The notes under the pieces were generated by a model, which saw only the letters and a list, made by a program, of their open reading frames with translations, was not told the origin of the DNA and did not search any database. This document shows, piece by piece, positions 16,955 through 42,819 of a stretch of DNA of 64,000 bases. The stretch covers positions 62,001 through 126,000 of the forward strand of contig NZ_CAMLSE010000001.1 in assembly GCF_946482605.1 (NCBI RefSeq), in the 5' to 3' direction. The translations under genes were made by a program, and so were the position numbers. The stretch is from an uncultured Dyadobacter sp. (GTDB lineage Bacteria; Bacteroidota; Bacteroidia; Cytophagales; Spirosomataceae). The stretch's first letter is position 1. Each line of letters opens with the position of its first letter.

Positions 16955-16990
16955 TAAAAAAGGAAGCAGCATTAATAGCACCTGACTTCC
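16955..16990 (-). terminator. Terminator overlapping the end of the FAD oxidoreductase gene
   Basis: Read on the minus strand, GGAAG-T-CAG (16990-16982) pairs with CTG-CTTCC (16969-16962) and is followed by a run of six Ts. The stop codon of the oxidoreductase gene (16972-16974) lies in the loop. It ends the 3' part of the polysaccharide locus and sits next to the promoter of the following gene. Confidence 0.65.
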
Positions 16991-21384: not shown

Positions 21385-21461
21385 TATGTGATGTCGTTCG
21401 GTTATGGGTTTGTTTTTTAGGGATTGATTTTTTTGTTTATTTGTAAAAAGCATTTTCAATT

Positions 21462-21698
21462 ATGGCAGCATCTCACACCGCCCCCACACGCCTCAGCAAT
21501 CTTCAAAGCGAATTGCTGAAATTGTATGCTTATAATGTCTCAGATGATCAATTGCGGGACATCCGGAAAATGCTGGCCGATTATTTCGCCCGAAAAATCG
21601 ACGCAGAAATGGACCGGCTTTGGGAAAGCAATGCCTGGGATGAACAGACCATTGAATCCTGGAAGTCGGAGCACATGCGTAGCAAGTCTTCCAAATGA
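21462..21698 (+). CDS. Putative antitoxin of a PIN-type module
   Basis: This 78-residue helical protein, not recognised by name, precedes a PIN-domain toxin gene and overlaps it by 4 nt (ATGA), the usual order in toxin-antitoxin pairs. The sequence is charged, with a predicted helix QSELLKLYAYNVSDDQLRDIRKMLADYFARK and an acidic-aromatic tail DRLWESNAWDEQTIESWKSEH, a pattern common in antitoxins that wrap a PIN toxin with the C-terminus. It is transcribed against the surrounding polysaccharide locus and begins shortly upstream of, and divergent from, the GH2 gene. Confidence 0.7.
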   Translation: MAASHTAPTRLSNLQSELLKLYAYNVSDDQLRDIRKMLADYFARKIDAEMDRLWESNAWDEQTIESWKSEHMRSKSSK

Positions 21699-22114
21699 GG
21701 ATTGTTCTTGATACTAATGTCCTGCTGATTTCACTTCCAATTAAATCCAGGTACCGACCTATTTTTGATGCTTTGAAGAACGGCGATTTCGAACTCGTTG
21801 TCAGTACTGATATTTTATTGGAATACCATGAAAAACTGACGGAGAAGGCTTCGTCTGAGGTAGCCGACAATGTTCTGAAATTTATACTATCGCTTGATAA
21901 TTGCGTTTTACAATCTACGTTTTTCGAATGGGCGCTAATGCACAATGACGAGGAGGACAATAAGTACGTCGACTGCGCCATTGTAGCCAATGCAGACCAT
22001 TTAGTTTCCGAAGACCGCCATTTTAATATTCTCAAAGACATTCAATTTCCAAGGTTATCAGTGATCAAAGTGAACGACTTTCTTCAATTGCTGACCGCTC
22101 GGGAAGGTCAATAG
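21695..22114 (+). CDS. PIN-domain toxin (VapC-like ribonuclease)
   Basis: This 139-residue protein is a PIN-domain nuclease of the COG1569 type. The acidic metal-binding residues are visible: D6 in MRIVLDTNVLL, E in LLEYHEKL, and the pair in EDNKYVDCAIVANADHLVSEDRHF. It should cleave RNA unless bound by the small protein encoded just before it. Its 3' end overlaps the end of the convergent symporter gene by 50 nt, so the module was probably inserted at the end of that gene, or that gene was extended. It separates the symporter from the GH2 gene within the locus. Confidence 0.85.
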   Translation: MRIVLDTNVLLISLPIKSRYRPIFDALKNGDFELVVSTDILLEYHEKLTEKASSEVADNVLKFILSLDNCVLQSTFFEWALMHNDEEDNKYVDCAIVANADHLVSEDRHFNILKDIQFPRLSVIKVNDFLQLLTAREGQ

Positions 22115-23789
22115 CCACCTTCCGCGCCGCCGAAAACGGGATCAATGCCGAGAGCAATACCACCGTGGCAATCCCTGCCGTGACCATTGCGCCGTCGGTG
22201 GTCAGGATACTCAAAATGAACAGCATCACCGCCGTGAACAGCAATGCGCCGGCAATTACCTGCAAGCCGAAACGATTTTGCTTTTGGATCTCCAATGCCT
22301 CCTGCGGGTCGGCAACGGTGGCTTCCTGCTTGCGCTGGACTTTGGAAAGTGCATAAATGGTGTATTCCCCGGCGATGATGCCTTTCGACCGGGCCCAGAG
22401 CTCATAGGCGAGCAAAAGAAGTAGAGGCAGCCCTACACCCACAATCGTTTCCATTCCGCGCGACAACTTAAAATCGAGCAGGAGCGGGGCCACGGTTTTG
22501 AAAAACAGATTGACACACAGGCCAATACCGGTAATCCAGAGTGTTGTATTGCCATTCAACCTTTTGGAAAACAATGCCCAGAGCGGCGGAGCGAGTAACG
22601 GACCGCCTGAAATGGCGGAGATGCTTAGTACCACTTCCACAATGCCGCCCGCCGCCGGAACCAGCAATGCGATACCGATCATACCCAGCCCGAAAAACCA
22701 CGATGAACCTCGCGCGACGCGTATGAGCTGCCTGTCGGAAGCGGCAGGGTTGACCATCCCCTTATAAATGTCATTCGTGAAAACAGCTGAAACCACGTTC
22801 AATGCCGTGTTGGCGCTGGCGGAGGTCGAGAAGTACATGCCGGTGAGCATCAGGCCCAGCAGCCCGGGAGGAAGCACCAGTTTGCAGATCATCAGATACG
22901 CGTTTTCGGTATCCAGGCCCGTCAATGTGGGGTTAATGGCCTTGTAAATCATCGGTGGGAACATCCAGATTACCGGGCTGATCAGGTACAGGCCGGCGAA
23001 CAGATAAGCGACTTTCCTGGCGGATTTTTCGCTGTCGACGCTCGTGTAGCGCTGCACCATGGTCCAGTTTCCGCCGATGTAACAAATGTGGTAGATCACA
23101 AATGCGGCGACGAACCCGAGCGTGTATTCGCCGTTGAGCAGGTTAAAAAAATCGTCGGGAATGTTGTTGGTGAACCCCTCCCAGCCGCCAACCTTGTTAA
23201 ATGAAAGCGGGAGCAGAATAAATACCGCGGCCGACAGTACGACAAATTGCAGAATATCAGTCACCATCACGGCCCAGAGCCCGCCCACTGCCGTGTAGGC
23301 AATCATAAAGAGCCCCAGCCCGATCGTACAAGGCACTAGCGGCAAATCCAGCGAGGCGCTTACCAGCTTGGCCACCGGATACAGCACCGAGCCTTTGATG
23401 AACACCGAAACCAATGTAAAAATGAAAATATAGGTCTTCTGAACGGGCAGCCCGAGGCGCTCGCGGATGAACTCGGCGGCTGTCAATGCGCCGGTCCGTT
23501 TCCAGCGCGGGGCGAGGTAAATGGCGGTAATGAGCGCACCGATGCACATCGTCCATTGAATGGTAATGGCCACCCAACCATGTTTATAGGCTATGGAACC
23601 CCAGGCTACGAAAGTGCCCGCCGAGAAAAAGCTCATAAAAAGCGACAACCCGCCAATGAACCACGGGACAGCCTCTCCGCCCGCGAAAAATGACTTCAAA
23701 TTGCGCCCCGTCCTGGCAAAAAGCATCCCGATCCCCATTACGAATGCGGAGAATACGAGAATGACGATGGTATCGGTGGTGTTGTTCAT
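22065..23789 (-). CDS. Sodium:solute symporter (SSS family)
   Basis: This 574-residue inner membrane protein of the SSS family should take up a sugar, sugar acid or related solute with sodium. It has about 13-14 membrane helices. Family features include the helices ADTIVILVFSAFVMG-like at the start, WKRTGALTAAEFIRERLG after the second helix, and TAVGGLWAVMVTDILQFVVL, which is the sodium-solute signature region. In this locus it would import the product of the secreted hydrolases and oxidoreductases. The C-terminal 17 codons overlap the oppositely oriented PIN toxin gene. A heptamer hairpin separates it from the upstream gene. Confidence 0.9.
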   Translation of the reverse strand: MNNTTDTIVILVFSAFVMGIGMLFARTGRNLKSFFAGGEAVPWFIGGLSLFMSFFSAGTFVAWGSIAYKHGWVAITIQWTMCIGALITAIYLAPRWKRTGALTAAEFIRERLGLPVQKTYIFIFTLVSVFIKGSVLYPVAKLVSASLDLPLVPCTIGLGLFMIAYTAVGGLWAVMVTDILQFVVLSAAVFILLPLSFNKVGGWEGFTNNIPDDFFNLLNGEYTLGFVAAFVIYHICYIGGNWTMVQRYTSVDSEKSARKVAYLFAGLYLISPVIWMFPPMIYKAINPTLTGLDTENAYLMICKLVLPPGLLGLMLTGMYFSTSASANTALNVVSAVFTNDIYKGMVNPAASDRQLIRVARGSSWFFGLGMIGIALLVPAAGGIVEVVLSISAISGGPLLAPPLWALFSKRLNGNTTLWITGIGLCVNLFFKTVAPLLLDFKLSRGMETIVGVGLPLLLLLAYELWARSKGIIAGEYTIYALSKVQRKQEATVADPQEALEIQKQNRFGLQVIAGALLFTAVMLFILSILTTDGAMVTAGIATVVLLSALIPFSAARKVAIDLPERSAIEESRSL

Positions 23790-23791
23790 AA

Positions 23792-23899
23792 GAAGGCTTT
23801 AAGCTGTAAGCTATAAGCTATATGCTTGATGATTGTTAGTTACGATTCTCTAATGCTTACGGCTTACAGCCTATTGCTTACTGCTTATAGCTTATAGCC
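23792..23899. repeat. Heptamer-repeat hairpin running into a coding end
   Basis: The left arm has units GGCTTTA, AGCTGTA, AGCTATA and AGCTATA (23794-23822); the right arm has complementary units up to about 23899. The right arm encodes the last residues and stop (LAISYKQ, TAA at 23880-23878) of the preceding gene. Same family as 8036-8124, 12829-12902 and 15511-15672. Confidence 0.75.
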
Positions 23900-26460
23900 A
23901 ATGTGCGTGCGCCGAATGCGGGTAGTTTAATATTGGTAATGGCGGCTTTCTGATTTGTTTCGGCCCATTTCATGGTTACCGACGCGTTGGTGCCGGATAC
24001 TTTGCTGTGGTCGATGTTCAGGTTGAATGCGGTAGGCTGCGGGCTGTTGTTCAGCAGCGTGATGTAGTAGGTGTTTTTGGTTTCTGATTTTGAAATAATA
24101 GGGTCGATGGACGGGCTGTCGGCGGTGATGAAGCCTTCTTTGATAACCAGGCTTGCCTTATCCCCAAAAACATCGCCCGGCGCGAAGCCGTAGGTCTGGT
24201 GGGGGCCTACTTTCGGTGTCACAAAGCCTCTGGGGAATGTAACCTTGCCATTCGAGCGCAATGCGGCTTCGGAAAGCAGGTAGTCGGTGATCCAGCCAAC
24301 CTGCCACCAGGCATGATGCGGGTAGGGGCCGGCGCCGCGGTTCATGGCATTCCAATAGTAAGAGGCTACGCTGGTTTTACTGTCCACAAATGCATCCCGG
24401 CCAATGGCAGCCGCGCGGGCCATATCTGCAAAAAGCCGCTCGCCGGTGAGCTGGTAAATACGGATGAACAACCCGGCGTGACTAGCCAGCTGAATAGGCC
24501 CATGCCGGGTAGCGGAACCAAAAATGCCGCCATGTTCAAAACTGAGGCCGGTTTGGCTGATCTCCCAATCTTCACGGGCATTGCCATTGACGGTTTTGGG
24601 TTTGTGGTCGGCGATGGGATGCGTGTAAATAGACGAGGTGTAGATTTTCGCGCAGGTAATGGCGGCGTCCTGGTACTTTTTGTTTTGGGTTAAATCAAAA
24701 AGGTCCAGCAATGCCTGTGCCGATTGGCCCGTCGCAAAGTCGGGTGCGTAGCGTGCGTCCCCGCATACACCCAGGAAAGCACCGGTTTCCACGGCATTTT
24801 TGAGAAACCATTCAGCCCCTTTCTCTGCCGCTTTCAGGTACTTTTCGTCTTTCAAAATGCGGTGGGCGACGATCAGGCCGTAAAACGTTGGCCGCACATC
24901 CTGAATATCCTTGAAAGCCTCCTGTTCGGTTTTGCGGTCGTAGGCCACGGCGAAGCTGCCGTCCTCGCGCTGCCAGCTCAGCAGTTTTTCGGCACCGAGT
25001 TTCAGGCGCTCTTTCAATTCCGCATTATTGGGCTCGAAAAGGAGCATATTACCTACATCGAGCATCACATAGTAGGTCAATGCAATAGGCTCGACGACCT
25101 CGCCCCATTCTTCGACGAATTTTTTCTTTTTGGCTAAATAATATTGCCCCTCCACGGCCCCTTTAAAGAAGCCTTCGTCGGTTTGCTGTTGAACGAGCTT
25201 GAAGTTTTCGGCCGGGGGAAGCACTTTTTGGGTCAGTTCGGGGTCTTTGGTCGCATTGGCGAGCATCCACATCGCGCCGTAATCCGAGTTTTTCATCGCA
25301 TCCTTATCGGAACCCACCACGCCGCCGAGGTACGATTGCGCACCAATCTGCTTGCCTTTGAACTCCTCGATATTCCAGAGCGAAGTCTTGGGATCGGTGA
25401 GGTAATGGTGCATTTTTTCGATCCGGTCGGTCAGTGCCTGCTTGCTTTGCCGAAGCGCGAGCGTTTCACTGAACTTGTAAATATCGACAGCCGCATGTTT
25501 GGTCGCTTGAAACCAGTCGCCTGAGATAAGGCTGTACCGGAATGTGTACGAAACCGATTGCCCGGCCTCCATTTCAGACTTTTCTTCTCCCAAAACCGGG
25601 TAGTATAGTGTCGGCGAAAGCTGTGCCTTGCGGTTCATATGCGAAAGCCCCAGATGCCAGTCGATCTGCGTGATCTGGTCTTTCGCCCACGGGTCGCGGG
25701 CGAGGCCCGGCTCTGGCACCACGGACAGTGTAATGCCCTCCTTGCTGCTCACAAGCGGGCTTAGCGTGGAAGCGCAACGCTCGCGGTACACGGCGGGGCG
25801 GTTGGGGATACCATGGCCATAGGCGTAGGCCAATGCAAAGTTTTTTTGCATAAAATTCCCCTGAAAATAGCCCGGCACCGACACCCAGCTCATCTGATCA
25901 ACGGGCAATGCGGCCAGGGTAGGCGTCGCCAGCGAGAAGTAGCCTTTTTTCTTCGCATTCAAAGTCATCGTTACCAGCACGTCGCTCGGGAAACGGGGAT
26001 CGATCTTCCAATGCGCGGTGATGCTCGCCACATCGGTTTCCGATTTGAATTCCAGTCCGTTATCCATCGCGGTACCTGTTTGCGGGAAAAAGTGAATGGC
26101 GCGCCCGGCGGTGTTTAATGCCACGCCGGTAGTGCTTTCTTTCCACTGGGTTTGCTGGTAATGGTAGGCGTCCTCGGGGAATTTGCCACCGGTGATCTTT
26201 TCAAAGGTTTCGGCCGATTCGGTCGAAGGCTTGGTTTCGGAATAGAGCAAAGTATATTCGCCGGAAGGTGCCGCGAGCTTAGCCCACTGGCCTTTTTTAT
26301 TCACAGCAACCTCTTCAATCCTCAATACGCCGTCCGTCTCCCGCCACTGTACGCGGATCGAATTGTTGGACAATGCCTTTACGGCCGTACGCTGGGCCGG
26401 GGCCTGCAAAACGGCGATAACGTTGAGTAAAACGGGTAGTAACAGGGTTATTCTTTTCAT
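23878..26460 (-). CDS. Secreted helical-toroid protein, possible glycosidase
   Basis: This 860-residue protein starts with a signal peptide (1-22, ending LQAPAQ). The first third looks like beta-sheet, and residues about 330-700 carry repeated paired helices with aromatic and glycine-rich loops (SDYGAMWMLANATKD, LLSWQREDGSFAVAYD, GAFLGVCGDARYAPDFATGQSAQALLDLF), as in six-hairpin (alpha/alpha)6 glycosidases, lyases and epimerases. A beta-sandwich C-terminus ends in SYKQ. I cannot name the family or catalytic residues. It overlaps the upstream apbE-like gene by 4 nt (ATGA) and so belongs to the co-translated part of the locus. Its last codons come from a hairpin repeat. Confidence 0.7.
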   Translation of the reverse strand: MKRITLLLPVLLNVIAVLQAPAQRTAVKALSNNSIRVQWRETDGVLRIEEVAVNKKGQWAKLAAPSGEYTLLYSETKPSTESAETFEKITGGKFPEDAYHYQQTQWKESTTGVALNTAGRAIHFFPQTGTAMDNGLEFKSETDVASITAHWKIDPRFPSDVLVTMTLNAKKKGYFSLATPTLAALPVDQMSWVSVPGYFQGNFMQKNFALAYAYGHGIPNRPAVYRERCASTLSPLVSSKEGITLSVVPEPGLARDPWAKDQITQIDWHLGLSHMNRKAQLSPTLYYPVLGEEKSEMEAGQSVSYTFRYSLISGDWFQATKHAAVDIYKFSETLALRQSKQALTDRIEKMHHYLTDPKTSLWNIEEFKGKQIGAQSYLGGVVGSDKDAMKNSDYGAMWMLANATKDPELTQKVLPPAENFKLVQQQTDEGFFKGAVEGQYYLAKKKKFVEEWGEVVEPIALTYYVMLDVGNMLLFEPNNAELKERLKLGAEKLLSWQREDGSFAVAYDRKTEQEAFKDIQDVRPTFYGLIVAHRILKDEKYLKAAEKGAEWFLKNAVETGAFLGVCGDARYAPDFATGQSAQALLDLFDLTQNKKYQDAAITCAKIYTSSIYTHPIADHKPKTVNGNAREDWEISQTGLSFEHGGIFGSATRHGPIQLASHAGLFIRIYQLTGERLFADMARAAAIGRDAFVDSKTSVASYYWNAMNRGAGPYPHHAWWQVGWITDYLLSEAALRSNGKVTFPRGFVTPKVGPHQTYGFAPGDVFGDKASLVIKEGFITADSPSIDPIISKSETKNTYYITLLNNSPQPTAFNLNIDHSKVSGTNASVTMKWAETNQKAAITNIKLPAFGARTLAISYKQ

Positions 26461-27500
26461 TTTTCCTGGATAAGGTCTTTGATACCGTCGGTGGCGAAGG
26501 ACATTAAATGCCCTTCCTCACTGGTGTAAAGCATGTACACATCGATATCTTTCCGGTTTTTTAAAAAGGTTTTGGTCGCTTCGAGGCCCATAACAAAGAA
26601 TGCGGTATCGTAGCCGTCGGCCGTCATGGCGTCTTTCGCAAACACCGTCACGCTGAGCAACGGCGTCTGCTCCATCGATCCGGTCCTGGGGTCGATGAGG
26701 TGGTTGTAGGTGATTCCGTTGCGGGTTATGTGGTTATGGTAATTGCCCGCGGTGGTCATTGCGCGGTTGGTGAGCTTCACGGTGGCTGCCAATGCGGCAG
26801 GTTTCAGCGGATTTTCGATGCCGGTCACCCAGGGCGCCTGATCGTTTTTGTTGCCCGAGCAGAGCACTTCCCCGCCGATTTCGACCATAAAACGATCGAT
26901 TTTGCGGCTTTTCAGAAATCCCCCCAGTATATCCACCGAATAGCCTTGCGCAATGCCATTGAAATCCAGCTTCACCCCGGGGCGGCTTTCTATTTGTTGG
27001 TTATTGAATTTAATGTACTTAAACCCAATGTATTGCAGCAACGAGTCGATATTTAGATTTTCCGGATCGACATTCTTTTTATTCCCAAAACCGTAAGCCT
27101 CGGAAAGCGGCATAATGGTAGGGTCAAATGCGCCGCCTGTCACTTCATAGATTTCTTTTGATTTAACCAAAACATCATAAAACCACGGCGAACGGAATGC
27201 ATGCCTTGAATCTTGATTGAATGCAGAAAGCTCGGAATCAGGGCGGTAGAGCGACAAACATTTGTCGAATTCAGCGAGTATTGAATCAATGGAATGCTTG
27301 AAATTGCGGCCTTGCGGATCGAAATAACGGACATGGTAAGTGGTACCCTGCGCTTCGCCGTCGATAGAAACCATACCCTCTTCGATGGCCGCCATTGTCG
27401 CCAACGGCAGCATCATCGGGATGAGGGTGGATATTACTCCGGCAATATGGATCGCAGTGTATTTCAATGCAAAATCAGGGTTGAGGGGCCAATGTTTCAC
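26457..27500 (-). CDS. apbE: FAD:protein FMN transferase, ApbE family
   Basis: This 347-residue protein (GTG start) should attach FMN covalently to threonine in extracytoplasmic proteins. ApbE marks are GEAQGTTYHVRYF, the LSLYRPDSELSAFN region, GGAFDPTIMPLSEAYGFG, LDFNGIAQGYSVD and NHLIDPRTGSMEQTPLLSVTVFA with DAMTADGYDTAFFVMG. The N-terminus has a hydrophobic export segment (about 13-36) and no clear lipobox. The GTG at 27500 overlaps the oxidoreductase gene by 26 nt; a TTG at 27467 is an alternative start with a better signal peptide. It lies two genes after a secreted protein with a flavin-attachment-like motif, its most likely target. Confidence 0.9.
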   Translation of the reverse strand: MKHWPLNPDFALKYTAIHIAGVISTLIPMMLPLATMAAIEEGMVSIDGEAQGTTYHVRYFDPQGRNFKHSIDSILAEFDKCLSLYRPDSELSAFNQDSRHAFRSPWFYDVLVKSKEIYEVTGGAFDPTIMPLSEAYGFGNKKNVDPENLNIDSLLQYIGFKYIKFNNQQIESRPGVKLDFNGIAQGYSVDILGGFLKSRKIDRFMVEIGGEVLCSGNKNDQAPWVTGIENPLKPAALAATVKLTNRAMTTAGNYHNHITRNGITYNHLIDPRTGSMEQTPLLSVTVFAKDAMTADGYDTAFFVMGLEATKTFLKNRKDIDVYMLYTSEEGHLMSFATDGIKDLIQEK

Positions 27501-29556
27501 CTTTCAGAATACCTGTCAGTTCGGGCAAATGGTCCTTGTAAACCCCCCGCGGGGTGGTTTTGTATTTGGCTGCGATGTACGAAGCGAATCCCACGACCTC
27601 GCCCATCATCCCGCACGTACGCATGACACGCGTGCTCCCGAACGCTACGTGGGTGGTGCTGATATTCCGACCGGCCATAAACAGGTTCTGGATGTTTTTG
27701 GAATAAAGACAGCGGTATGGAATCGTGTAAGGCGCTACTTTAATGTGCTTGGTGCCCGCGAAAAACTCCTGTCCCTCAAAGTATTTGCTGTTTTTGGCGT
27801 CGGGGAAATGGAGATCGATCGTCCAGGTAGCCGTAACTGAGCCATCGGGGTAAAATTTGCCTTCCTGAATATCCATTTGATTCAAAACATAGTCGCCGAT
27901 GATCCTGCGCGATTCGCGTTTTCCGCCGATGTAGGCCACCCAGGCGAGATCCTTTTTGCCGTATTTAGCGGCTTTGTTTTTCTTTAAATAGGACCAGTTG
28001 CCGTAGATGGCGCGCAGATTATGGTCGCGGATCTGTTCAGCCTGGGTAATGGTATTGAAATTACCGAAACCCGTTTCCCATTGCCAGTCGGATTTGGGTT
28101 CGTCGATGTGGTACTCGTCCGAAAACTGCATAGCCCAGGGCGTTTCAGGGAAGGACGAGACAGTATCGCGGTCCACCGACGCCCACAAATTGGAAGTACC
28201 CAGTGTAAAATCATCGGATTTGTCGGCCGCGAGCGATTCGCCGGTTTCGTCCTTGCTCTCGCGCCCCATCCTGAATTCCGCGCCAGCCAGGAAGCCGACG
28301 GTACCATCGCCGGTACAATCCGAAAAGAAGGAGCCGGAAAAGCGGCACTCCTGGTTGGTAGCAATATCGCGGCCTACTACCGCGGTGATAATGTCATTCT
28401 CTTTTTCAACTTTAAATACATGCGTGTTCAGGAACAGCGAAAGATTCTTTTCTGCTTTGACGATTGAAATTTTGCGTGCATCGCCATATTCTTTGGCATC
28501 GGGGTTACCATTGCCGGGATCGCCGTTGTCCATTTCGCGGACAATGCGGCCGAGCTTGGGGTAGTGGTTTTTATCCACATCACCCATCAAATGTACACGT
28601 ACTTCGGAGCTGTTGTTGCCGCCAAGCACGGGGCGGTCCTGGATCAATGCTACGGTGAGGCCCATTCGAGCGGCGGAAATGGCCGCGCAGGTTCCGGCAA
28701 TGCCGCCACCTACTACCACCAGGTCGTAGCGACCGGCATCCTGTGGCTTATCGGTGAGGTTCAGTTGCTTTCTGCGGAATGCGGTCAGTGCTTCCAGCTC
28801 ATTCGGTGGCGTGAATTTCAAATCGTCTGTAAACAGCAATGCATCGCAGCGGCCGTTGAAGCCGGTAAGGTCTTTCAATGCGAGTTTTGTATCGGTATTT
28901 TTAATGTCGACCACACCGCCGTCGTACCATTTCCAGGCATCGGAGCCGCTTTCGCCGAAAGTTTGGCCCACAGATTTCCCCTCCACCAGCACCTGAAACT
29001 TGCCCGGCCCTTTCGGGAACGGAGCCCAGTCTTTGGTGCGTACCCACATATGGTACTTACCGGTTTTTGGGAATTTTACGGTAGTAGCAGCATCCTTCAC
29101 CGGGCGCCCCATTCCGTGGGCCATAATATAGGAAGAGTTCATGACCACAAAAGACTGCTGATCAATCACCCATCCGCCCTTGTCCTCGAAAGATTCTGTT
29201 TCGATCAGGAGATGGTTCTGAGCCATGGCAGGGACGGTGAGGAGTGCCACGACCAGGATGGCGCTGGCCCATATGGCTATGCCCCGGGCGATGGTGCTTC
29301 GGGCTATTGTGCGCCAGGCGTCTATGTCCCTGGCGATCGCGGCCCGGGCGCCTATGTCGCTTAGGATCGTGCCTCTGGCGATCGTGCCCTGGGTATCTGT
29401 GTCCCTGTCGATCGTGTATCTGGCGTCTGGAGCCCAGGCGATCGTGCCCCTGGCGATCGTACCCCAGGCGTCTGTAGCCCAGGCGTCTGTAGCCCAGGCG
29501 TCTGTAGCCCAAGGCTTAAGCCTTGGGTTGGGGTTGGGGTTGGGGGTGATGTTCAT
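27475..29556 (-). CDS. Secreted FAD-dependent oxidoreductase with repeat-built N-terminus
   Basis: This 693-residue protein has the FAD motif LVVVGGGIAGTCAAISAARMG (about 260-280), then QDRPVLGGNNSSEVR, CTGDGTVGFLAGAEFRMG, GKRESRRIIGDY and FMAGRNISTTHVAFGSTRVM. Residues about 113-245 form a beta-sandwich domain (HLLIETESFEDKGGW onwards) like the golvesin/carbohydrate-binding module in related proteins. A hydrophobic segment at 93-112 ending PAMAQ looks like a signal peptide, but it follows some 92 residues of pentapeptide repeats. The ATG at 29556 overlaps the upstream stop as ATGA, and there is no other ATG before the signal segment. It is probably exported and acts on a glycan-derived sugar. 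Confidence 0.82.
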   Translation of the reverse strand: MNITPNPNPNPRLKPWATDAWATDAWATDAWGTIARGTIAWAPDARYTIDRDTDTQGTIARGTILSDIGARAAIARDIDAWRTIARSTIARGIAIWASAILVVALLTVPAMAQNHLLIETESFEDKGGWVIDQQSFVVMNSSYIMAHGMGRPVKDAATTVKFPKTGKYHMWVRTKDWAPFPKGPGKFQVLVEGKSVGQTFGESGSDAWKWYDGGVVDIKNTDTKLALKDLTGFNGRCDALLFTDDLKFTPPNELEALTAFRRKQLNLTDKPQDAGRYDLVVVGGGIAGTCAAISAARMGLTVALIQDRPVLGGNNSSEVRVHLMGDVDKNHYPKLGRIVREMDNGDPGNGNPDAKEYGDARKISIVKAEKNLSLFLNTHVFKVEKENDIITAVVGRDIATNQECRFSGSFFSDCTGDGTVGFLAGAEFRMGRESKDETGESLAADKSDDFTLGTSNLWASVDRDTVSSFPETPWAMQFSDEYHIDEPKSDWQWETGFGNFNTITQAEQIRDHNLRAIYGNWSYLKKNKAAKYGKKDLAWVAYIGGKRESRRIIGDYVLNQMDIQEGKFYPDGSVTATWTIDLHFPDAKNSKYFEGQEFFAGTKHIKVAPYTIPYRCLYSKNIQNLFMAGRNISTTHVAFGSTRVMRTCGMMGEVVGFASYIAAKYKTTPRGVYKDHLPELTGILKGETLAPQP
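29257..29511. repeat. 17 degenerate 15-bp tandem repeats at a gene start
   Basis: In-frame 15-bp units encode pentapeptides of the form (W/R)-(A/G)-T-(D/I)-A at residues 16-100 of the oxidoreductase. The first three copies (WATDA) are identical and later ones diverge. They extend into the hydrophobic core of the signal peptide (RGIAI, WASAI). All 17 units keep the frame, so copy-number change would not shift translation. Confidence 0.9.
29508..29527. repeat. 20-bp perfect palindrome next to TTGGGG repeats
   Basis: CCCAAGGCTTAAGCCTTGGG is its own reverse complement. It adjoins three TTGGGG-like units (29524-29543), and both lie within the first 16 codons of the oxidoreductase gene. It borders the 15-bp tandem array and may be where that array began. 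Confidence 0.9.
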
Positions 29557-30503
29557 TGTTTTTGCAGGATTTTTTGAATTAGTAGAGTTTGTTCTTCATT
29601 GGCATTGGGCAGGCTGGTTTGCAGGTTTGCTGCCAGGGATTTTGATATTTGAATGGGGCCGGTATTCAGTTTTTTTAGAATGGCTATTTGCATGGCATAG
29701 CCTGTTTTCTGGTACGTTTCCCAAAGCCAGTTCTGCCGTTGCTCTGTTTTTAAAAAGTCATTTCCCACATGCTGTAAGGCATATTTGGCGATGAACCCGT
29801 TCTTTCCGGCGATGATCGCTTCAATATCTTTTTCAAAAGGTCTTTTAACAACGCCGCTTGCATTCATGACCTTCGCCATGGCCCAATACTGGTAATGGTG
29901 ATTTTTGCTTTCCAGAAACCGGTGCAGCAATGCGTCGTTCGAATAAGTTTCGATGACTTTCCGCATTTCGGGTACTGCCTTTCCGTAGGCGATGTGCCAG
30001 AGGGTGTAACAGGTGTAAACCGCGCCGTCGATCACCTGGTTTTTAATGGTTTTTAAAGTCGCACCCGCTTTCGCATCGACAGAATCGGTCAGATTATCGG
30101 TGCCTTTGGAGATCAGATCTTCCATTTTCAGGTCCGCGAAAATGGAGTTCGTTTGGACAAGAATATCCTGTAATTTTTGGTAATCCTCCTCCCTGAACTC
30201 GTCATGGTCGACCTTGGTAAGTACCTTTCCTTCGGGCAGGTCATAGCGTTCATAGTTGCCCAGCAGGTCCCAATAGAAATTGATATACACCGGTTTGCAT
30301 TCATTGGTGTAGCAAACCGGTGTGAAAATGTTCCTGAAAAAGTACTGCGGCTGGCCTTTGTCGTCGAGCGCGAGTTTAAGGGTGTAGGTTAATGTGTCAT
30401 TTTCGGTAACCGTGAACTCCCTGACCCGCTCCTTTTGCCTGTCGGGAAAGGGAGCGGATGTAAGCATTGCCAGGAAGAAAAGCACTTGGGCGATCAGCAT
30501 CAT
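29553..30503 (-). CDS. Secreted protein with FMN-attachment-like motif
   Basis: This 316-residue protein has a signal peptide (about 1-17, LIAQVLFFLAMLTSA). I do not recognise the full protein. At about residues 150-178 the segment VDAKAGATLKTIKNQVIDGA resembles the D-x-x-(S/T/A)-G-A-T site of FMN-binding domains, where ApbE attaches FMN to threonine. Upstream lies a beta-rich part with a cysteine pair (VCYTNEC), and the C-terminal 130 residues are helical, resembling HEAT-like repeats. It directly follows SusD and overlaps the FAD oxidoreductase gene by 4 nt, with apbE two genes on. A role as a flavin electron carrier is my inference. The alanine before Gly-Ala-Thr is a deviation from the commonest motif. 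Confidence 0.65.
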   Translation of the reverse strand: MMLIAQVLFFLAMLTSAPFPDRQKERVREFTVTENDTLTYTLKLALDDKGQPQYFFRNIFTPVCYTNECKPVYINFYWDLLGNYERYDLPEGKVLTKVDHDEFREEDYQKLQDILVQTNSIFADLKMEDLISKGTDNLTDSVDAKAGATLKTIKNQVIDGAVYTCYTLWHIAYGKAVPEMRKVIETYSNDALLHRFLESKNHHYQYWAMAKVMNASGVVKRPFEKDIEAIIAGKNGFIAKYALQHVGNDFLKTEQRQNWLWETYQKTGYAMQIAILKKLNTGPIQISKSLAANLQTSLPNANEEQTLLIQKILQKQ

Positions 30504-30512
30504 TTCAATAAC

Positions 30513-32006
30513 CTATTTCCAATCAGGATTCTGTTCCAGCTTCGGGTTGGCATTGATTTCGTCGAGCGGGATCGGGAAATATTTGTTTTTCGCGGTCACG
30601 TTGCGCGTCGGGTACACGTCATTGACGGCCTTCGGAATCACCGTCAGGAACTTGCCTGTGCGGGTGAGGTCATACCAGCGGTCGCCCTCCGCGAAAAATT
30701 CCCAGGCACGCTCCTGCAAAACAGCTTCGATGAATGCGTCCTTCGCGAGACCGGTTTTGAGGTCCGGTAAACCAGCCCGTTTCCGGACCGGGTTGATGAA
30801 ATCATACGCGGCAGCAGTGGCACCATTCAGTCGGGCCTCAGCCTCTGCTGCGATCAGATACATGTCCGGCAGGCGGAAAATGGGGATATTAGGGATCAGG
30901 CCGACGGTGGATACGGGGTCCTGGTATTTTTTGATGAGGACACCCTTGGTCGTAATGGGTGTAATGCTTTTCTGCGGCACGATGGCACCAGCCTTATTTA
31001 CGTAGTTGGTGTCCAGCAACGTGCGTCGTTTGTCAGCAGGATCGAACGATTTGAAAAATGCTTCATAGGCGAACATCGAGCCGAAAGAGGTGCGGGCAAA
31101 TTCGGGCCCGGCGCTTCCCGGAGGGCCGCAAAGGCCGGTCAGCTGGTGACCAAGGCCGGGCGACACGGGATCGGCTTCGAATGCCCACATATTTTCTACC
31201 CTTGCGGCATCCTCCTTGTCGTATTTGTAAACATCCCGGACGTCGGCCATGAGGGAATATTTGCCCGAGTTGATTACTTCCTTGGCCTTTTCCAATGCTT
31301 TGGCCCAGTCTTCATTGTACAACGCAGCTTTGGCATATAATGCACTCACCACTTCTTTGGCAACACGGCCTTTGTCCACTGTCGGGTAGGAAGTGAGCCC
31401 GGCAGCCAGCGCCTGATCCAGATCGGCGTAAATCTGCTTGTACACGTCCGCTTTGGAGCTTTTAGCGGTCAATGCCTCTGCTTCCGTGTAACTGGGCGTG
31501 ATTTTAATGGGAATGTCCCCAAAGTTTTTACTTAAAAACCAGTGATAAAATGCCCGCAGAAAATAGGCCTCTCCGATGATCTGCTTCTTGCGCGCGTCGT
31601 CCATATTGGCATCCGGCACTTTGGCAATCACCCAGTTGGCTTTTTCAATACCATTGTAACACGAAGCCCAGATCTGCTGCGGCGATTCGTTCGTCCGCGC
31701 ATTGCTTTTCTGCGTCGTATAGTTGACGTCATAGGTAAAGAGTGTCAGCGTGTTGCGGCCCACCACGCCGCGTGGGTAAGTCTGGTCGTCACTGAAATCT
31801 GCGATCAACGTCAGTGCCGGACCTCCTCCCAGGCCGCCCAGCGCGCCGTATGCCGAGATGAGCCCTTTTTCCGCATCGGCAGCGGTTTTATAGAAGGCCT
31901 CGGTATAGATGGACGAGTAAATTGTTTCGTCGAGCTGGCAGGATGGTGCGATCAGCGCCGTTCCGGCCATGCCCAGGTATGTGGTTATCTTCAGTAGTTT
32001 TTTCAT
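30513..32006 (-). CDS. SusD/RagB-family nutrient-binding lipoprotein
   Basis: This 497-residue outer membrane lipoprotein binds glycans at the cell surface and closes over its SusC partner, encoded just upstream. A lipoprotein signal ends at C23 (ALIAPSCQLDE). The family's helical repeats are seen in LISAYGALGG, EAYFLRAFYHWFLSKNFGDIPI and the C-terminal RLPDMYLIAAEAEARLNGATAAAYDFINPVRKRAGLPDL, ending in ERAWEFFAEGDRWYDLTRTG. This last segment is the classic RagB/SusD signature. The spacing of 41 nt to SusC and 9 nt to the next gene indicates one operon. Confidence 0.95.
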   Translation of the reverse strand: MKKLLKITTYLGMAGTALIAPSCQLDETIYSSIYTEAFYKTAADAEKGLISAYGALGGLGGGPALTLIADFSDDQTYPRGVVGRNTLTLFTYDVNYTTQKSNARTNESPQQIWASCYNGIEKANWVIAKVPDANMDDARKKQIIGEAYFLRAFYHWFLSKNFGDIPIKITPSYTEAEALTAKSSKADVYKQIYADLDQALAAGLTSYPTVDKGRVAKEVVSALYAKAALYNEDWAKALEKAKEVINSGKYSLMADVRDVYKYDKEDAARVENMWAFEADPVSPGLGHQLTGLCGPPGSAGPEFARTSFGSMFAYEAFFKSFDPADKRRTLLDTNYVNKAGAIVPQKSITPITTKGVLIKKYQDPVSTVGLIPNIPIFRLPDMYLIAAEAEARLNGATAAAYDFINPVRKRAGLPDLKTGLAKDAFIEAVLQERAWEFFAEGDRWYDLTRTGKFLTVIPKAVNDVYPTRNVTAKNKYFPIPLDEINANPKLEQNPDWK

Positions 32007-32047
32007 ATCAGTTTGAACTCAAGGTCTGCAAAGAGGATTTAGGGCGA

Positions 32048-35000
32048 TTAGAATGTGACCTGGATGCCTCCCAGGAATGATCTGGACTGGGGATAGACGA
32101 AGTTGTCCACGCCGATGACCGTGTTCGAGCCTGCGTAAGTGTTTACTTCGGGGTCATAGCCACTGTAATTTGTGATCGTAAACAGATTGTTCGCGCTCAC
32201 GTACAGCCGGATGCCCTGCACGCCCTTGAATCGAGGTACAGTGTATCCCAATGTCAGGTTTTTGCAGCGCAGGTAAGAGCCATCTTCCACCACATAGTTG
32301 CTGATCGGCAGACGGCCTCCCTGGAATCCGCTCACATACTGGTTGTTCGGGTTGATGGGCGACCAGCGGTTTGCCACTCCCGCGAGGAGGTTACGCTGTC
32401 CCAGCGGGTTTTCGAAAGAAAGACGGCTGGCATTGTAAATGTCATTACCCTGTGAACCGGAAATGAAAGCTCCCAGGTCGAAGCCTTTGAACGACAGGTT
32501 AGTTGAAAAGCCGTAGATGAATTTCGGGTTGGGGTTACCGACGATCATCTGGTCGGCGGAGGTGATCTGTCCGTCGCCCGTCACATCTTTCACCTTATGG
32601 CCCCCGAGGCGTCCGTCATATCCGGGGAGGATGGTTTCGCCGGTCTGATTTACACCGTCGAACACATAACTCTTGAACACCCCCAGCGGCTGTCCGATTT
32701 TGAGGATCGTGTAAGTGGTCATGAAGCGCTCATTGGTGACGCCGCCGTCCAGATCTAGCACCTTGTTGCGGTTGATGGTCGCATTCGCCGAAACATCCCA
32801 TTTCAGTTTACCGTCGAGGATGCGTGCATTCACCGCCAGTTCGAGGCCCTTGTTCTGCAATGCGGCAAAGTTCCCATTAATGCTGCCGTAGCCTGAACTG
32901 AGCGGTAATGTCTTTACATACAGCAGGTCATCGGTTTTTTTCTGATACACATCCGCAATGATGCTGATCCGGTTGTTCAGCAGGCTGATATCCACACCCA
33001 GGTTGGTTTGCTTAGACCGCTCCCAGCGCAGGTCAGGATTGGCAATGCCGGTTGGATCGATGCCCGTTACATAGCTATGGTTGATCATGTAGCTGTTACC
33101 GGAAGCGACTGTCGCCAGCGACTGATAGGGGTCAATTCCCCCTGCATTACCCGTAATTCCATAGCTTCCGCGCAGTTTGAAGTCGGACAGCCACGTGATA
33201 TCTTTCATAAATGGCTCTTCGATCAGGCGATAGGCAGCCGATACGGCGGGGAAGAGACCGTATTTGTGATTCGCGCCGAACTTGCTCGAACCGTCGACGC
33301 GTGCTGTTACGTCGATGAAGAACCTGTCTTTGAACCCGTAGTTTACACGTGCCATATACGAGTCGAGGCGCTGGCTGCTCCGGCCGCTGCTAATCGTGCG
33401 GGTCAATGCAAGTTGCATCGCCTCGTTTCTGGTAGCGTCGTTGGGGAAACCGGAGGCGCTCATGGTGTTGCTATTGCCTTGTTCAAGCTGGGTACCAAAT
33501 ACGGCAGTGGCTTTGAACGAATGGATTTTGGCGAATGAGGTGCTGTAAGTCAGGATGCTTTCGTGCAGCAATGCCAGATAGTTGGAATTGGCTTTGGTAC
33601 CTGAGCCGGAGTTATCGTTCAGGTCACTTTTGTTGACGATCGAGCGGGGTGAATAGCCGTCAAACAGTTCTCCTTTCTGATCAAGGTTAAATGAGGCACG
33701 GTAGGTGAGGCCTTTGAAAAGATTGAACTCTCCGTACAAGTTAGCCAGGGTGCGTTTGATGGCGCGTTTGTTTAGCACAGCCGAGAAGTTCAGCGGGTTC
33801 ACTACCTCACGGTACTGTCCGCCCGCCTGCTCACCGAACGGGAAAATACTGCCGTCGGCACGATAGGGCTGCAAGGTGGGAGGTGCGCCAATAGCCGCCC
33901 CTAGTACAGATGAAAGTACCGCACCGCCGTCGCCGATATTGGTACCGCCCGTCTGGATGCCGTTCGCAATGGAATAACTGCCGAGAATGCTGGTACCGAC
34001 CTTCACATTTTTGCTGATGCGATGGTCGAGGTTAAGGCGGTAGGAATAACGCTGAAACTGAGAACCGATCAGGGTGCCGTCCTGATCGAAATAGTTAAGC
34101 GACATCGCCACCTGTGTTTTTTCATTGCCTCCATTGATCGAAAGCTGGTGATTCTGGATCGGTGCTTTGCGGAAGATCAGTTTTTGCCAGTTGACGCCCT
34201 CGCCGAGGGATGCGGGATCGGGGTAGTAGTTGTTTTTAAATACTTCATTTTCAACCTGAGCGAATTCGGATGCATTCAGTACATCCAGCAACTTGTTTAC
34301 TTTCTGGGTGCCATAATAGCCGTCGTACGTGACACGTGTAGAGCCGTTTTTACCTCTTTTGGTCGTGATCAGAATGACACCATTGGCGGCGCGGGCACCG
34401 TAAATGGCTGATGCCGAGGCGTCTTTTAACACTTCAACCGATTCGATGTCGTTTGGATTGATGGTCGAAAGCGGGCTTACATCCGTAATGCCGCCCCCGT
34501 TGGAAACCTGGATCCCATCGATTACATACAGCGGTTCGGACGATCCGTTAATGGAGTTGGTTCCCCTGATCCTGACACTGATGTTACCACCCGGAGACCC
34601 GGAGTTCTGGTTGATCTGCACCCCCGCAACACGTGCCTGAAGGCCCTGAGCGATGTTCGCCACGGGAGTTTGCACCAGATCGGCCGCTTTGACGGAGGCG
34701 ATGGAGCCTGTTGTTTCAACTTTTCGTTGTGTTCCATATCCCACTACTACCACTTCTTCAAGCGCTTTGGTGTCTGTTTTCAATGAAACATCTACCGTAG
34801 AGCGGTTAGCGACAGCCACTTCCTCTTTCAGGTATCCGAGAAATGAGAACACGAGCGTTGCATTGCCCGACACCTGAATGACATATGCGCCTTCGGCATC
34901 GGTAAGTGTTCCCTGCTGTGTGCCCTGTACCGTTACGCTCACCCCCGGGATCATTTCGCCTTTTTCGTCGGTTACTTTGCCTTTTACAGTAGCATTTTGA

Positions 35001-35071
35001 GCAAGTAACGACTGTGTAATGCCCAGGCAGAGCAAACTGAGCAGGAACAAGTCACGTATTTTTTTCTTCAT
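32048..35071 (-). CDS. SusC/RagA-type TonB-linked outer membrane porin
   Basis: This 1007-residue porin pairs with the SusD lipoprotein encoded next and imports oligosaccharides across the outer membrane. It has a signal peptide (1-24, SLLAQ), a carboxypeptidase-like beta domain (about 27-105), the SusC signature LEEVVVVGYGTQRKVETTGSI with plug segment VLKDASASAIYGARAANGVILITTKRG, and a long barrel ending GGIQVTF. It is the first gene of the minus-strand polysaccharide locus and faces a LacI-type regulator gene across a 339-bp intergenic region with a palindromic site. Paralogue of the porin at 16-3171. Confidence 0.95.
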   Translation of the reverse strand: MKKKIRDLFLLSLLCLGITQSLLAQNATVKGKVTDEKGEMIPGVSVTVQGTQQGTLTDAEGAYVIQVSGNATLVFSFLGYLKEEVAVANRSTVDVSLKTDTKALEEVVVVGYGTQRKVETTGSIASVKAADLVQTPVANIAQGLQARVAGVQINQNSGSPGGNISVRIRGTNSINGSSEPLYVIDGIQVSNGGGITDVSPLSTINPNDIESVEVLKDASASAIYGARAANGVILITTKRGKNGSTRVTYDGYYGTQKVNKLLDVLNASEFAQVENEVFKNNYYPDPASLGEGVNWQKLIFRKAPIQNHQLSINGGNEKTQVAMSLNYFDQDGTLIGSQFQRYSYRLNLDHRISKNVKVGTSILGSYSIANGIQTGGTNIGDGGAVLSSVLGAAIGAPPTLQPYRADGSIFPFGEQAGGQYREVVNPLNFSAVLNKRAIKRTLANLYGEFNLFKGLTYRASFNLDQKGELFDGYSPRSIVNKSDLNDNSGSGTKANSNYLALLHESILTYSTSFAKIHSFKATAVFGTQLEQGNSNTMSASGFPNDATRNEAMQLALTRTISSGRSSQRLDSYMARVNYGFKDRFFIDVTARVDGSSKFGANHKYGLFPAVSAAYRLIEEPFMKDITWLSDFKLRGSYGITGNAGGIDPYQSLATVASGNSYMINHSYVTGIDPTGIANPDLRWERSKQTNLGVDISLLNNRISIIADVYQKKTDDLLYVKTLPLSSGYGSINGNFAALQNKGLELAVNARILDGKLKWDVSANATINRNKVLDLDGGVTNERFMTTYTILKIGQPLGVFKSYVFDGVNQTGETILPGYDGRLGGHKVKDVTGDGQITSADQMIVGNPNPKFIYGFSTNLSFKGFDLGAFISGSQGNDIYNASRLSFENPLGQRNLLAGVANRWSPINPNNQYVSGFQGGRLPISNYVVEDGSYLRCKNLTLGYTVPRFKGVQGIRLYVSANNLFTITNYSGYDPEVNTYAGSNTVIGVDNFVYPQSRSFLGGIQVTF

Positions 35072-35410: not shown

Positions 35411-36580
35411 ATGATTCAATGCGTGAAGTGTGCACAGGTGGATGGCATCATGAAAGCCGGGTATGTCCGCGGCAAGCAACGCTATCTGTGCAAGTGGTGT
35501 AACTATTACTTTACGCATACGGAAAAAGATGATTCGGTGGAGTCGCTGGTGAAGCGGAGGAGGCACCAGACCACCATTATCGACATCGCCAAATCGCTGG
35601 GCGTGTCGAATTCGACGGTTTCGAGAGCCCTGCACGGGCATGCGGACATTAGCCCGGAGACGCGCCAGGCGGTACTCGATAAAGCGGCACAACTTGATTA
35701 CCAACCCAACCAACTGGCCTACAACCTGGTTAAAAGCAGGACGAATACCATTGGTATGATCGTCCCGGAGTTTCATAATCCATTCTTTCCCAATGTGATC
35801 ATCGGAGCGCATGAGGTGCTGACCGAGGCGGGTTACAACCTGACGATCATGCAGAGCAATGAATCGTACCAGGTGGAGATTTCCAATGCGCGTGCCATGC
35901 TTGCTAACCGGATCGATGGCCTGCTGATCTCCCTTACCCAGGAGACTAATAACTTCGATCACCTCAGCCTTTTCGCCAAGCGGGGCATTCCGCTGATCCA
36001 GTTCAACCGGGTGTGCGACCAGATCGATGTGCCTAAGGTGGTCGTGAACGACTTCGAGGCATCCTTTCAGGCGGTTGAGCACCTGATTCTCAATGGATAC
36101 GAGCGGATTGCGCATTTGGGCGGGCCGCTGACTTTGCAGGTTAGCCAGGAGCGTTTACGAGGATACCTTGCGGCGTTGGAGAAGTACGGCAAACCGGTGG
36201 AGAGCCACATGATCATTCAGGGCATGCTTACGCAGCAGAAGGCCCATATTTACGGTCAATACCTGCTCGACCTCACCGACCGCCCCGACGCGATCTTCGC
36301 GGTAAACGATTCTTCGGCGATCGAGATCATGCTTATGGCCAGGGAAAAAGGAATCTCGATCCCCGACGAGCTCGGCGTCGTGGGGTTCAGCGATAATGCG
36401 GAATCGGCTTACATCGGTCCCGGGCTCACGACCGTCCGTCAGCCCACCTTGCAGATCGGCCGTACGACAGCTGAATGGGTCCTGCAACTCGTGGACGCCG
36501 ACGAGGTTATTGTGAACGAGAAGCGGGTTTTGAACACGGAATTGATTGTAAGGGGTTCGTCGACGCGATGCAGCCGCTAG
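35411..36580 (+). CDS. LacI-family regulator with N-terminal zinc ribbon
   Basis: This 389-residue regulator has three parts. Residues 1-40 are a zinc ribbon of the type found at the N-terminus of IS1/IS1595 transposases (C4-x2-C7, GYVRGKQRYLC27KWC30). Residues about 55-78 are a LacI helix-turn-helix (IDIAKSLGVSNSTVSRALHGHADIS), and residues 110-389 form a periplasmic-binding-protein-like sensor domain (TIGMIVPEFHNPFFPNVIIGAHE). Typical LacI proteins are about 340 residues and start at the HTH. It probably senses a sugar from the adjacent locus and controls SusC, possibly through the palindrome at 35269-35300. A terminator follows the gene. Confidence 0.92.
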   Translation: MIQCVKCAQVDGIMKAGYVRGKQRYLCKWCNYYFTHTEKDDSVESLVKRRRHQTTIIDIAKSLGVSNSTVSRALHGHADISPETRQAVLDKAAQLDYQPNQLAYNLVKSRTNTIGMIVPEFHNPFFPNVIIGAHEVLTEAGYNLTIMQSNESYQVEISNARAMLANRIDGLLISLTQETNNFDHLSLFAKRGIPLIQFNRVCDQIDVPKVVVNDFEASFQAVEHLILNGYERIAHLGGPLTLQVSQERLRGYLAALEKYGKPVESHMIIQGMLTQQKAHIYGQYLLDLTDRPDAIFAVNDSSAIEIMLMAREKGISIPDELGVVGFSDNAESAYIGPGLTTVRQPTLQIGRTTAEWVLQLVDADEVIVNEKRVLNTELIVRGSSTRCSR

Positions 36581-40569: not shown

Positions 40570-40608
40570 TGGAAAAAGGGGTTTCTGAACTAATGCAAAT
40601 GCATCAGT

Positions 40609-40779
40609 TTAAGTATTGCAGTTTGTAGGTAATGTTATTTTGCCCGCGAGCTTTGTTGAAGGCTTTTGAGCACGTTTGGCTTTTAGAAGTGTACTGATTT
40701 CAGTTAGCATCGAACCGCTAATGGTAGTGTTTACGAATGCCGCATCCTGTTTGTCCAGTAATCTAATGTCAGTTTTCAT
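40609..40779 (-). CDS. Small 56-residue ORF coupled to the GNAT-like gene
   Basis: The frame starts with ATG at 40779-40777, which overlaps the stop of the preceding gene as ATGA, and ends with TAA at 40611-40609. It encodes MKTDIRLLDKQDAAFVNTTI and continues to a Lys/Thr-rich tail. I recognise no family. The exact 4-nt overlap is the main support for it being translated. It might be an accessory or antitoxin-like partner of the acetyltransferase-like protein, but that is a guess. Confidence 0.5.
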   Translation of the reverse strand: MKTDIRLLDKQDAAFVNTTISGSMLTEISTLLKAKRAQKPSTKLAGKITLPTNCNT

Positions 40780-41276
40780 TTGAAGTATTGCTTAAACAGT
40801 GAAAAGGACTCTTTACTATCAATAAACATTCTGCGCCCGCCTAGAATTTTCGCTCCTATCGCTTTCTGGTAATATGTAATTAAGCTCGTTTTTGATTCAA
40901 AAACAACTATTCCGTCAAATCCTTTTTCAAAAGCGAGCCTACATGCATAAGCGATCAGATTTCCGGCCACCCCGAGATACTCCTTCGTTCTGCCTTTGTT
41001 AAATTTCGCATTTTCAATCAAATGCATGAACACATGGTCTTCGTTAAAACTGACGCTGATCAAACCGTGTATCCTCTTCGGATCTCCTCTGATAACCAGC
41101 TTGTAGACGCACTTGCCGACGTGAGACACCTCACCATGCCAGTCAAAGAGCCAGTCGGTTTTTGTGAATGGGCGGCGAGAGATCTTTTCAACAAGAACCA
41201 CTTCGGTTTCAAATATTCTTCCGGTGAGCGCATGCTCAATGGAGTTGGTTAGTTTGTCGATTTCGATATCCAACAT
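40776..41276 (-). CDS. GNAT-like acetyltransferase, hypothetical
   Basis: This 166-residue protein resembles GNAT N-acetyltransferases in its last two thirds: a central sheet (VYKLVIRGDPKRIHGLISVSFNEDHVFMHLIE), a helix where acetyl-CoA would bind (GRTKEYLGVAGNLIAYACRLAFEKG) and the C-terminal strand-helix (DGIVVFESKTSLITYYQKAIGAKILGGRRMFID). The usual Q/R-x-x-G-x-G/A loop appears weakly as YLGVAGNL. Substrate unknown. It lies between two fucosidase genes on the same strand and its stop overlaps the start of a 56-residue ORF. It may be a recent insertion into the glycosidase group. Confidence 0.6.
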   Translation of the reverse strand: MLDIEIDKLTNSIEHALTGRIFETEVVLVEKISRRPFTKTDWLFDWHGEVSHVGKCVYKLVIRGDPKRIHGLISVSFNEDHVFMHLIENAKFNKGRTKEYLGVAGNLIAYACRLAFEKGFDGIVVFESKTSLITYYQKAIGAKILGGRRMFIDSKESFSLFKQYFK

Positions 41277-41350
41277 GCGTATAGCGTTTATTTTCTACAA
41301 AATATGACACTATACGCATACGTTGGTCATGAAATGAGCAACAGGCTGGT

Positions 41351-42772: not shown

Positions 42773-42819
42773 GTTGGTTAAGAGATAATTATAAATTAGT
42801 ATTTCCTTATTGCATTGGC

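Follow-up and report, generated by a model that had tools for sequence, protein, structure and literature searches.

Among described systems, the nearest to the one considered here are RnfG and NqrC, proteins of the FMN_bind family (PF04205) that are flavinylated by ApbE, an FAD:protein FMN transferase (FAD, flavin adenine dinucleotide; FMN, flavin mononucleotide). We analyzed a glycan utilization locus within 64,000 nucleotides of DNA from an uncultured Dyadobacter sp. (contig NZ_CAMLSE010000001.1, positions 62,001 to 126,000; hereafter the window), the host of this sugar-uptake operon being what we take to be a soil bacterium. The locus combines SusC and SusD with an ApbE, an FAD-dependent oxidoreductase of the PF12831 family, and a 316-residue protein that we term FMNc, a putative ApbE-flavinylated electron carrier. 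FMNc resembles RnfG and NqrC in its predicted N-terminal fold and in a D-x-x-x-x-A-T motif. It differs from them, however, in that it has no sequence-level match beyond this motif, is fused to HEAT/ARM-like repeats, is paired with PF12831 proteins in glycan loci, and carries invariant Cys64, Cys69, and Trp78 residues; in addition, NqrB/RnfD is absent from 20 of 22 genomes selected as holders of FMNc.

Other systems share individual features with this locus. Periplasmic glucoside 3-dehydrogenase and keto-glycoside pathways oxidize glycosides as a step in their breakdown, drawing on different enzyme families and on cytochrome c or NAD; for our locus, a keto product is conjectural. Flavinylated fumarate- and urocanate-reductase-like enzymes, which join an FMN-bind domain to a fumarate-reductase-type FAD domain, likewise have, outside the cytosol, a covalent-FMN module that works together with an FAD-containing flavoprotein, as we predict for FMNc and its partner. 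In our locus, however, the two are separate proteins, the best family match of the FAD protein is PF12831, the hosts are probably aerobic, and electrons probably flow in the opposite direction. According to the main text of a flavinylation survey, DUF2271 and DUF3570 are ApbE substrates encoded beside orphan apbE genes, and their flavinylation has been shown (PMC8238504). Like these families, FMNc lies outside Pfam FMN_bind, is often encoded near apbE, and bears the motif, whereas its domain is different, its context is a glycan locus, and its flavinylation is predicted. The same text proposes that a flavinylated NapH-like protein of the exaA alcohol oxidase cluster stands between the alcohol oxidase and the respiratory chain, replacing cytochrome c (PMC8238504). 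Extracytosolic oxidation with electron exit through a flavinylated protein is the idea that this cluster shares with our proposal, although an FAD enzyme, a soluble carrier, and SusC/SusD take the place of the alcohol oxidase and the NapH-like protein.

The first-pass annotation of the window knew of no described system with this composition, and we found none in the open-licence literature of PubMed Central, a corpus outside which subscription papers and preprints fall. The terms polysaccharide, SusC, and Bacteroid- never occur in the main text of the survey; it covered five genes on either side of every ApbE found, and such clusters may therefore stand unremarked in its supplementary tables (PMC8238504). 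The accessible portion of a later structural study covers FMN-bind, NqrB/RnfD, DUF2271, Flavodoxin_4, and FMN_red (PMC11334425).

We propose, with reasonable though far from full confidence, that the glycan utilization locus has its own exported redox relay, in which the PF12831 enzyme oxidizes a sugar and the electrons pass through FMNc to the aerobic respiratory chain. SusC and SusD would bring glycan fragments into the periplasm, where the PF12831 flavoenzyme would oxidize a sugar or glycan after export together with its FAD. Its electrons would enter FMNc, which is encoded separately and has an FMN-bind-like domain; the ApbE of the locus would covalently attach FMN to this domain at Thr149. 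The electrons would then leave for the aerobic respiratory chain via a partner encoded elsewhere. The C-terminal HEAT/ARM-like repeat of FMNc may serve to dock a partner.

The FMNc family and its predicted flavinylation site

FMNc (29553..30503, minus strand) matches no credible family in Pfam or NCBIfam searches, and its best PDB match by hmmsearch is 8p2b (E = 0.15). AlphaFold2 (AF2) models and structural matches divide the protein into an N-terminal FMN-bind-like domain (residues ≈25–186) and C-terminal HEAT/ARM-like repeats (residues 187–316). Because HEAT/ARM-type repeat proteins dominate the fold search with the full-length protein, the N-terminal domain was modeled alone. Its predicted fold is RnfG/NqrC-like across the whole domain, in agreement with the FMN-bind-like fold around residues 150–180 that the earlier interpretation requires.

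The FMN-attachment-like motif noted in the first-pass annotation is present as D143-A-K-A-G-A-T149 (codons at 30057..30077, minus strand, computed from the open reading frame [ORF]), but it departs at one position, with Ala for Ser/Thr, from the ApbE motif D-x-x-[S/T]-G-A-[S/T] as given in the consulted portion of PMC12052999. We predict Thr149 to be the FMN-linked residue. Among 120 of 350 homologs, the window FMNc included, the last four motif residues are TGAT in 61, AGAT in 57, and SGAT in two; the closest named homologs among the matches listed are from Dyadobacter. More distant copies, within a set of 106 aligned members (108 hits minus two whose frames are short or contain stops; some genes, shared by two loci, count twice), carry DGVSGAT, DAVSGAT, DGITGAT, and similar sequences, some with Ser or Thr in place of Gly. 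When the family is clustered at 70% identity, the Asp, Ala, and Thr of the motif are invariant in all 42 clusters, as are Cys64, Cys69, and Trp78. The strict motif occurs in 26 clusters, while eight have Ala for the first Ser/Thr and eight have Ser or Thr for Gly. The motif is rare elsewhere, with D..[ST]GA[ST] or D..[STA][GS]A[ST] found in four of 801 other ORFs of at least 250 residues in the loci numbered up to L113. The assignment of FMNc as a new FMN-bind-like family is well supported, and the prediction that its members are ApbE substrates is strong.

Conserved partners of FMNc in related genomes

We collected 67 related loci from one genome-collection scan, built neighbor models from these loci, and counted same-strand genes; some contigs end near the FMNc gene. 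In 63 of the loci, a PF12831 partner lies no farther than 3 kb from FMNc, and within 8 kb are ApbE (43 loci), SusC (59), and SusD (59). Within 9–10 kb there follow a toroid protein (46), an SSF symporter (44), and a GH2 glycosidase (38). The co-occurrence of apbE with FMNc that the earlier interpretation requires holds in related genomes, and the neighborhood recurs there. At 11 further places with FMNc paralogs, the FAD partner is present in all 11, SusC in 10, SusD in nine, and ApbE in two. Most Dyadobacter and Spirosoma loci have the order SusC-SusD-FMNc-FAD-ApbE-toroid-SSF-GH2, Runella loci have one additional gene before the toroid, and most Chitinophaga loci read SusC-SusD-unassigned gene-FMNc-FAD-ApbE. 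Larkinella loci mostly have no ApbE; in two Larkinella genomes with such a main locus, a divergent FMNc is encoded elsewhere with ApbE no more than 150 nucleotides away. Kiritimatiellae-type genomes supply three of the 67 loci (L062, L065, and L067). When the phylum is sampled evenly, FMNc occurs in eight of 296 genomes, counting the starting genome.

The FAD_oxidored (PF12831) protein of the window (693 residues; 27475..29556, minus strand) matches its family over profile positions 1–408 of 416 (E = 2.9e-75, 254.6 bits; residues 278–673), preceded by an unassigned stretch at approximately residues 112–260, whereas its FAD_binding_2 match spans 37 residues only. In the ten of the 22 genomes considered for this purpose, a PF12831 match is found no more than 1.2 kb from every one of the 22 FMNc genes; conversely, only 23 of 77 hand-listed PF12831 places (75 long ones and two split-gene pieces) are near FMNc. 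Ten proteins encoded near divergent copies of FMNc were compared with Pfam, and nine of these, from seven distant or paralog loci, belong to PF12831 and one to PSCyt1; several have an RR-containing N terminus that appears Tat-like by eye. The pairing of FMNc with PF12831 is well supported. Families around divergent FMNc copies are mixed (GH43, FecR, fucosidase, sulfatase, and others, from 95 of 135 listed neighbor ORFs scanned) and indicate no single substrate. Polysaccharide pyruvyl transferase-like genes (PF04230) were also observed near divergent copies, at L102:9069–10334 and in two further neighbor ORFs.

The ApbE of the window (26457..27500, minus strand) is a full-length family match (PF02424, E = 1.4e-73, profile positions 2–265 of 266) with an N-terminal hydrophobic stretch recognized by eye. 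All 22 genomes encode ApbE (65 genes) and FMNc (35 genes, three pieces of one joined), while FMN_bind occurs in two, NqrB/RnfD in two, DUF2271 in 13, and DUF3570 in six. Within 8 kb of the 65 ApbE genes there is FMNc for 17, DUF2271 for 11, FMN_bind together with NqrB for one, and none of these for 36. DUF3570 was left to a separate count, in which five of the 36 are within 1 kb of a match; six of the 36, in six Dyadobacter genomes, are 44–56 kb from the FMNc locus, and the remaining unpaired ApbE genes may serve further substrates. Viewed from the other side, 19 of the 35 FMNc genes have ApbE within 8 kb. Eight genomes (G001, G002, G012, G014, G016, G019, G020, and G022) encode ApbE and none of FMN_bind, NqrB/RnfD, DUF2271, or DUF3570; in six of these, ApbE is within 8 kb of FMNc, the others being G016 and G020. 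In a midpoint-rooted tree of a chosen subset of 42 ApbE sequences, outside which the window's own ApbE falls, the 20 sampled FMNc-linked ApbEs (18 from main loci and two from paralog loci) form one clade with support of 0.90 and with no others inside; the 22 other sequences represent 21 genes, one entered twice. The nearest other ApbE adjoins FMN_bind and NqrB genes. This distinct clade in the sampled tree suggests that the FMNc family has a dedicated ApbE. Predicted fold, invariant motif, conserved neighborhoods, ApbE clade, and the 22-of-22 PF12831 pairing together give good support to the first-pass view of an ApbE placed beside a candidate flavinylated carrier and an exported FAD oxidoreductase in a glycan locus.

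Locus layout and flanking genes

ORFs and Pfam/NCBIfam profiles place all six genes from SusC to the toroid on the minus strand at the positions first annotated. The SusC-type TonB-dependent glycan transporter (1007 residues; 32048..35071) scores 889 bits against TIGR04056, over the cut-off, and has a Plug domain (PF07715). Adjacent to it is the SusD-type surface glycan-binding lipoprotein (497 residues; 30513..32006), with PF07980 SusD_RagB over the cut-off, PF14322, and a lipobox-like APSC by eye; the two mark a polysaccharide utilization locus. Export of every locus protein was judged by eye from sequence. The 860-residue toroid (23878..26460), glycosidase-like and probably secreted, has no Pfam family above its cut-off and no close relative by PDB sequence search. 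Many of its 120 listed homologs carry precomputed GH127 (PF07944) or GH88 (PF07470) domains, and the source-given names among the matches listed are mixed.

The operon runs beyond these genes to ≈16972, through an SSF sodium:solute symporter (22065..23789; PF00474, E = 2.1e-36), a probably exported GH2 glycosidase (19294..21459; PF02836/PF02837), and a second FAD_oxidored protein (757 residues; 16972..19245; PF12831, E = 1.6e-97), all on the minus strand. A similar PF12831 frame of 759–768 residues lies ≈8–13 kb from FMNc in eight of 10 genomes, by coordinates computed by hand. An ORF on the plus strand (21695–22114), putatively PIN-domain-like (toxin-like), lies between the symporter and GH2 and overlaps the symporter end. 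Sulfur assimilation genes occupy the window from ≈16844 downwards. On the other side, a LacI-family regulator (35411..36580, plus strand; PF00356 and PF00532) is divergent from SusC, as it is upstream of SusC in many relatives too; its N terminus contains a CxxC...CxxC stretch that looks zinc-ribbon-like by eye. Further upstream (39106–43857, minus strand) are two Alpha_L_fucos (PF01120) genes and one Asparaginase_2 gene, which hint at glycoprotein glycans as food.

Overlap lengths were computed from ORF coordinates with the first possible start, and the same rule was applied to relatives. The junction overlaps of 4, 26, and 4 nucleotides reported for the window are present in its ORFs and the two short ones recur, but the 26-nucleotide overlap is not conserved. 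The FMNc/FAD overlap of 4 nucleotides is also found in 12 Dyadobacter loci (L001–L008, L013, L014, L029, and L044), and that of ApbE/toroid is kept in 10 of the 10 closest loci. The FAD/ApbE overlap of 26 nucleotides depends on a GTG start and is found again in one Spirosoma locus (L032), whereas in the ten closest loci (L001–L009 and L044) the two genes are separated by 6 to 18 nucleotides. The window FAD ORF begins with ≈90 repeat-rich codons (29290–29556, minus strand), a variable stretch of doubtful translation. Relatives have other, shorter N-terminal extensions at the same place, followed by a Sec-like signal (by eye); because of this difference the true start of the window gene is uncertain, and the stretch has the look of a repeat-element insertion that separates FMNc from the signal peptide.

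Direction of electron flow and significance for glycan loci

We infer covalent flavinylation, oxidation rather than reduction, the substrate, the docking role, and the downstream acceptor; the direction, the substrate, and the final acceptor follow from the glycan context and from hosts that are probably aerobic. A COX1-family gene is present in 22 of the 22 FMNc genomes, and the taxa concerned are mostly aerobes. In favor of oxidation we count the glycan setting, the COX1-family genes, the published alcohol-oxidase proposal, and neighboring CxxCH proteins, which lie no more than two genes from FMNc in L061, L065, and L110. In L110, an FMNc paralog is followed by ApbE and then by a protein that combines DUF7133, HEAT, and cytochrome c domains.

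A number of observations weigh against the proposed relay. The locus shows no membrane redox protein, flavinylated fumarate-reductase-like enzymes are reductases, and the 22 genomes were selected because they hold FMNc. A CxxCH protein is found within four genes of FMNc in three loci only, which led us to drop a cytochrome as the standard FMNc partner. The best PDB sequence matches of the window PF12831 protein cover only the FAD-binding start, with no close relative found by that search, and oxidation by this enzyme is for that reason a conjecture on our part; the second PF12831 protein has no evident signal peptide. Four of the 67 loci (L061, L062, L065, and L067, the first and last near contig ends) have no PF12831 within 3 kb, and an ApbE within 8 kb is missing from 24 of the 67 loci and from nine of the 11 paralog loci. 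As for the fold, PF04205 FMN_bind has no match, even with E values up to 1 admitted, in the window FMNc or in any of 32 members; with Foldseek nothing matches at E = 0.001, the best FMN-bind match having E = 1.0; all structural Z scores are <8, and AF2 confidence is lowest at the motif, where Ala replaces the published Ser/Thr. In an hhalign comparison with 33 FMN_bind proteins of Bacteroidota, the alignment was confined to 29 columns surrounding the motif, with a probability of 26 and, for this one comparison, E = 7e-4.

The likeliest alternative is a relay in reverse, in which membrane electrons would pass through FMNc to the PF12831 enzyme and reduce a glycan-derived or aglycone compound. 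Known flavinylated enzymes of the fumarate-/urocanate-reductase type are described as extracytosolic reductases in the survey's main text (PMC8238504), and the FAD-binding start of our enzyme is weakly similar to flavocytochrome c3 and urocanate reductase. That similarity, however, spans ≈40–55 residues at an FAD-binding motif common to many flavoenzymes in the same list, and a respiratory reductase is less expected given the ubiquitous COX1-family genes and the mostly aerobic taxa. The nearby CxxCH proteins are plausible acceptors, although they could equally be donors. On balance we regard reverse flow as unlikely. A flavinylated FMNc might instead belong to the PF12831 enzyme as a subunit, in a complex that hands electrons directly to oxygen or to a soluble acceptor, independently of respiration; the near-constant pairing of the two genes and the lack of a membrane redox partner in the locus are consistent with this, but the HEAT/ARM-like repeat suggests further docking and the L110 arrangement of paralog, ApbE, and cytochrome c-domain protein also speaks against it, and we consider such a complex quite improbable. 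Very improbable, in our judgment, is an FMNc that is not flavinylated, its motif being a structural relic or its flavin noncovalent and ApbE serving another protein: the Ala in the window motif, the absent FMN_bind match, and the 24 loci with no nearby ApbE would fit, but Thr149 is invariant in 42 of 42 clusters, a distinct ApbE clade accompanies the family in the sampled tree, and the four other substrate families tested are all absent from eight of the 22 genomes.

Several consequences follow from the proposed oxidative relay and from the family itself. FMNc is a candidate for what the products of orphan apbE genes flavinylate, a point that the survey leaves open in its main text, where genomes with such genes and no identified substrate are said to remain (PMC8238504). 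PF12831 oxidoreductases beside FMNc gain a testable partner and setting. Accounts of SusC/SusD loci usually center on hydrolases and lyases; if the proposed direction is true, sugar oxidation outside the cytoplasm by way of a covalent flavin carrier joins the repertoire of these loci. Under our hypothesis for the redox chemistry of FMNc/PF12831 loci, one class of Bacteroidota glycan loci may, we suggest tentatively, be a respiratory device in which a periplasmic PF12831 dehydrogenase makes keto-sugars and a hitherto unrecognized, covalently flavinylated carrier, served by an ApbE of its own, feeds an oxygen-respiring chain, yielding energy before cytoplasmic import. Overall, the gene set of this locus suggests that some bacteria take electrons from sugars before these enter the cell.

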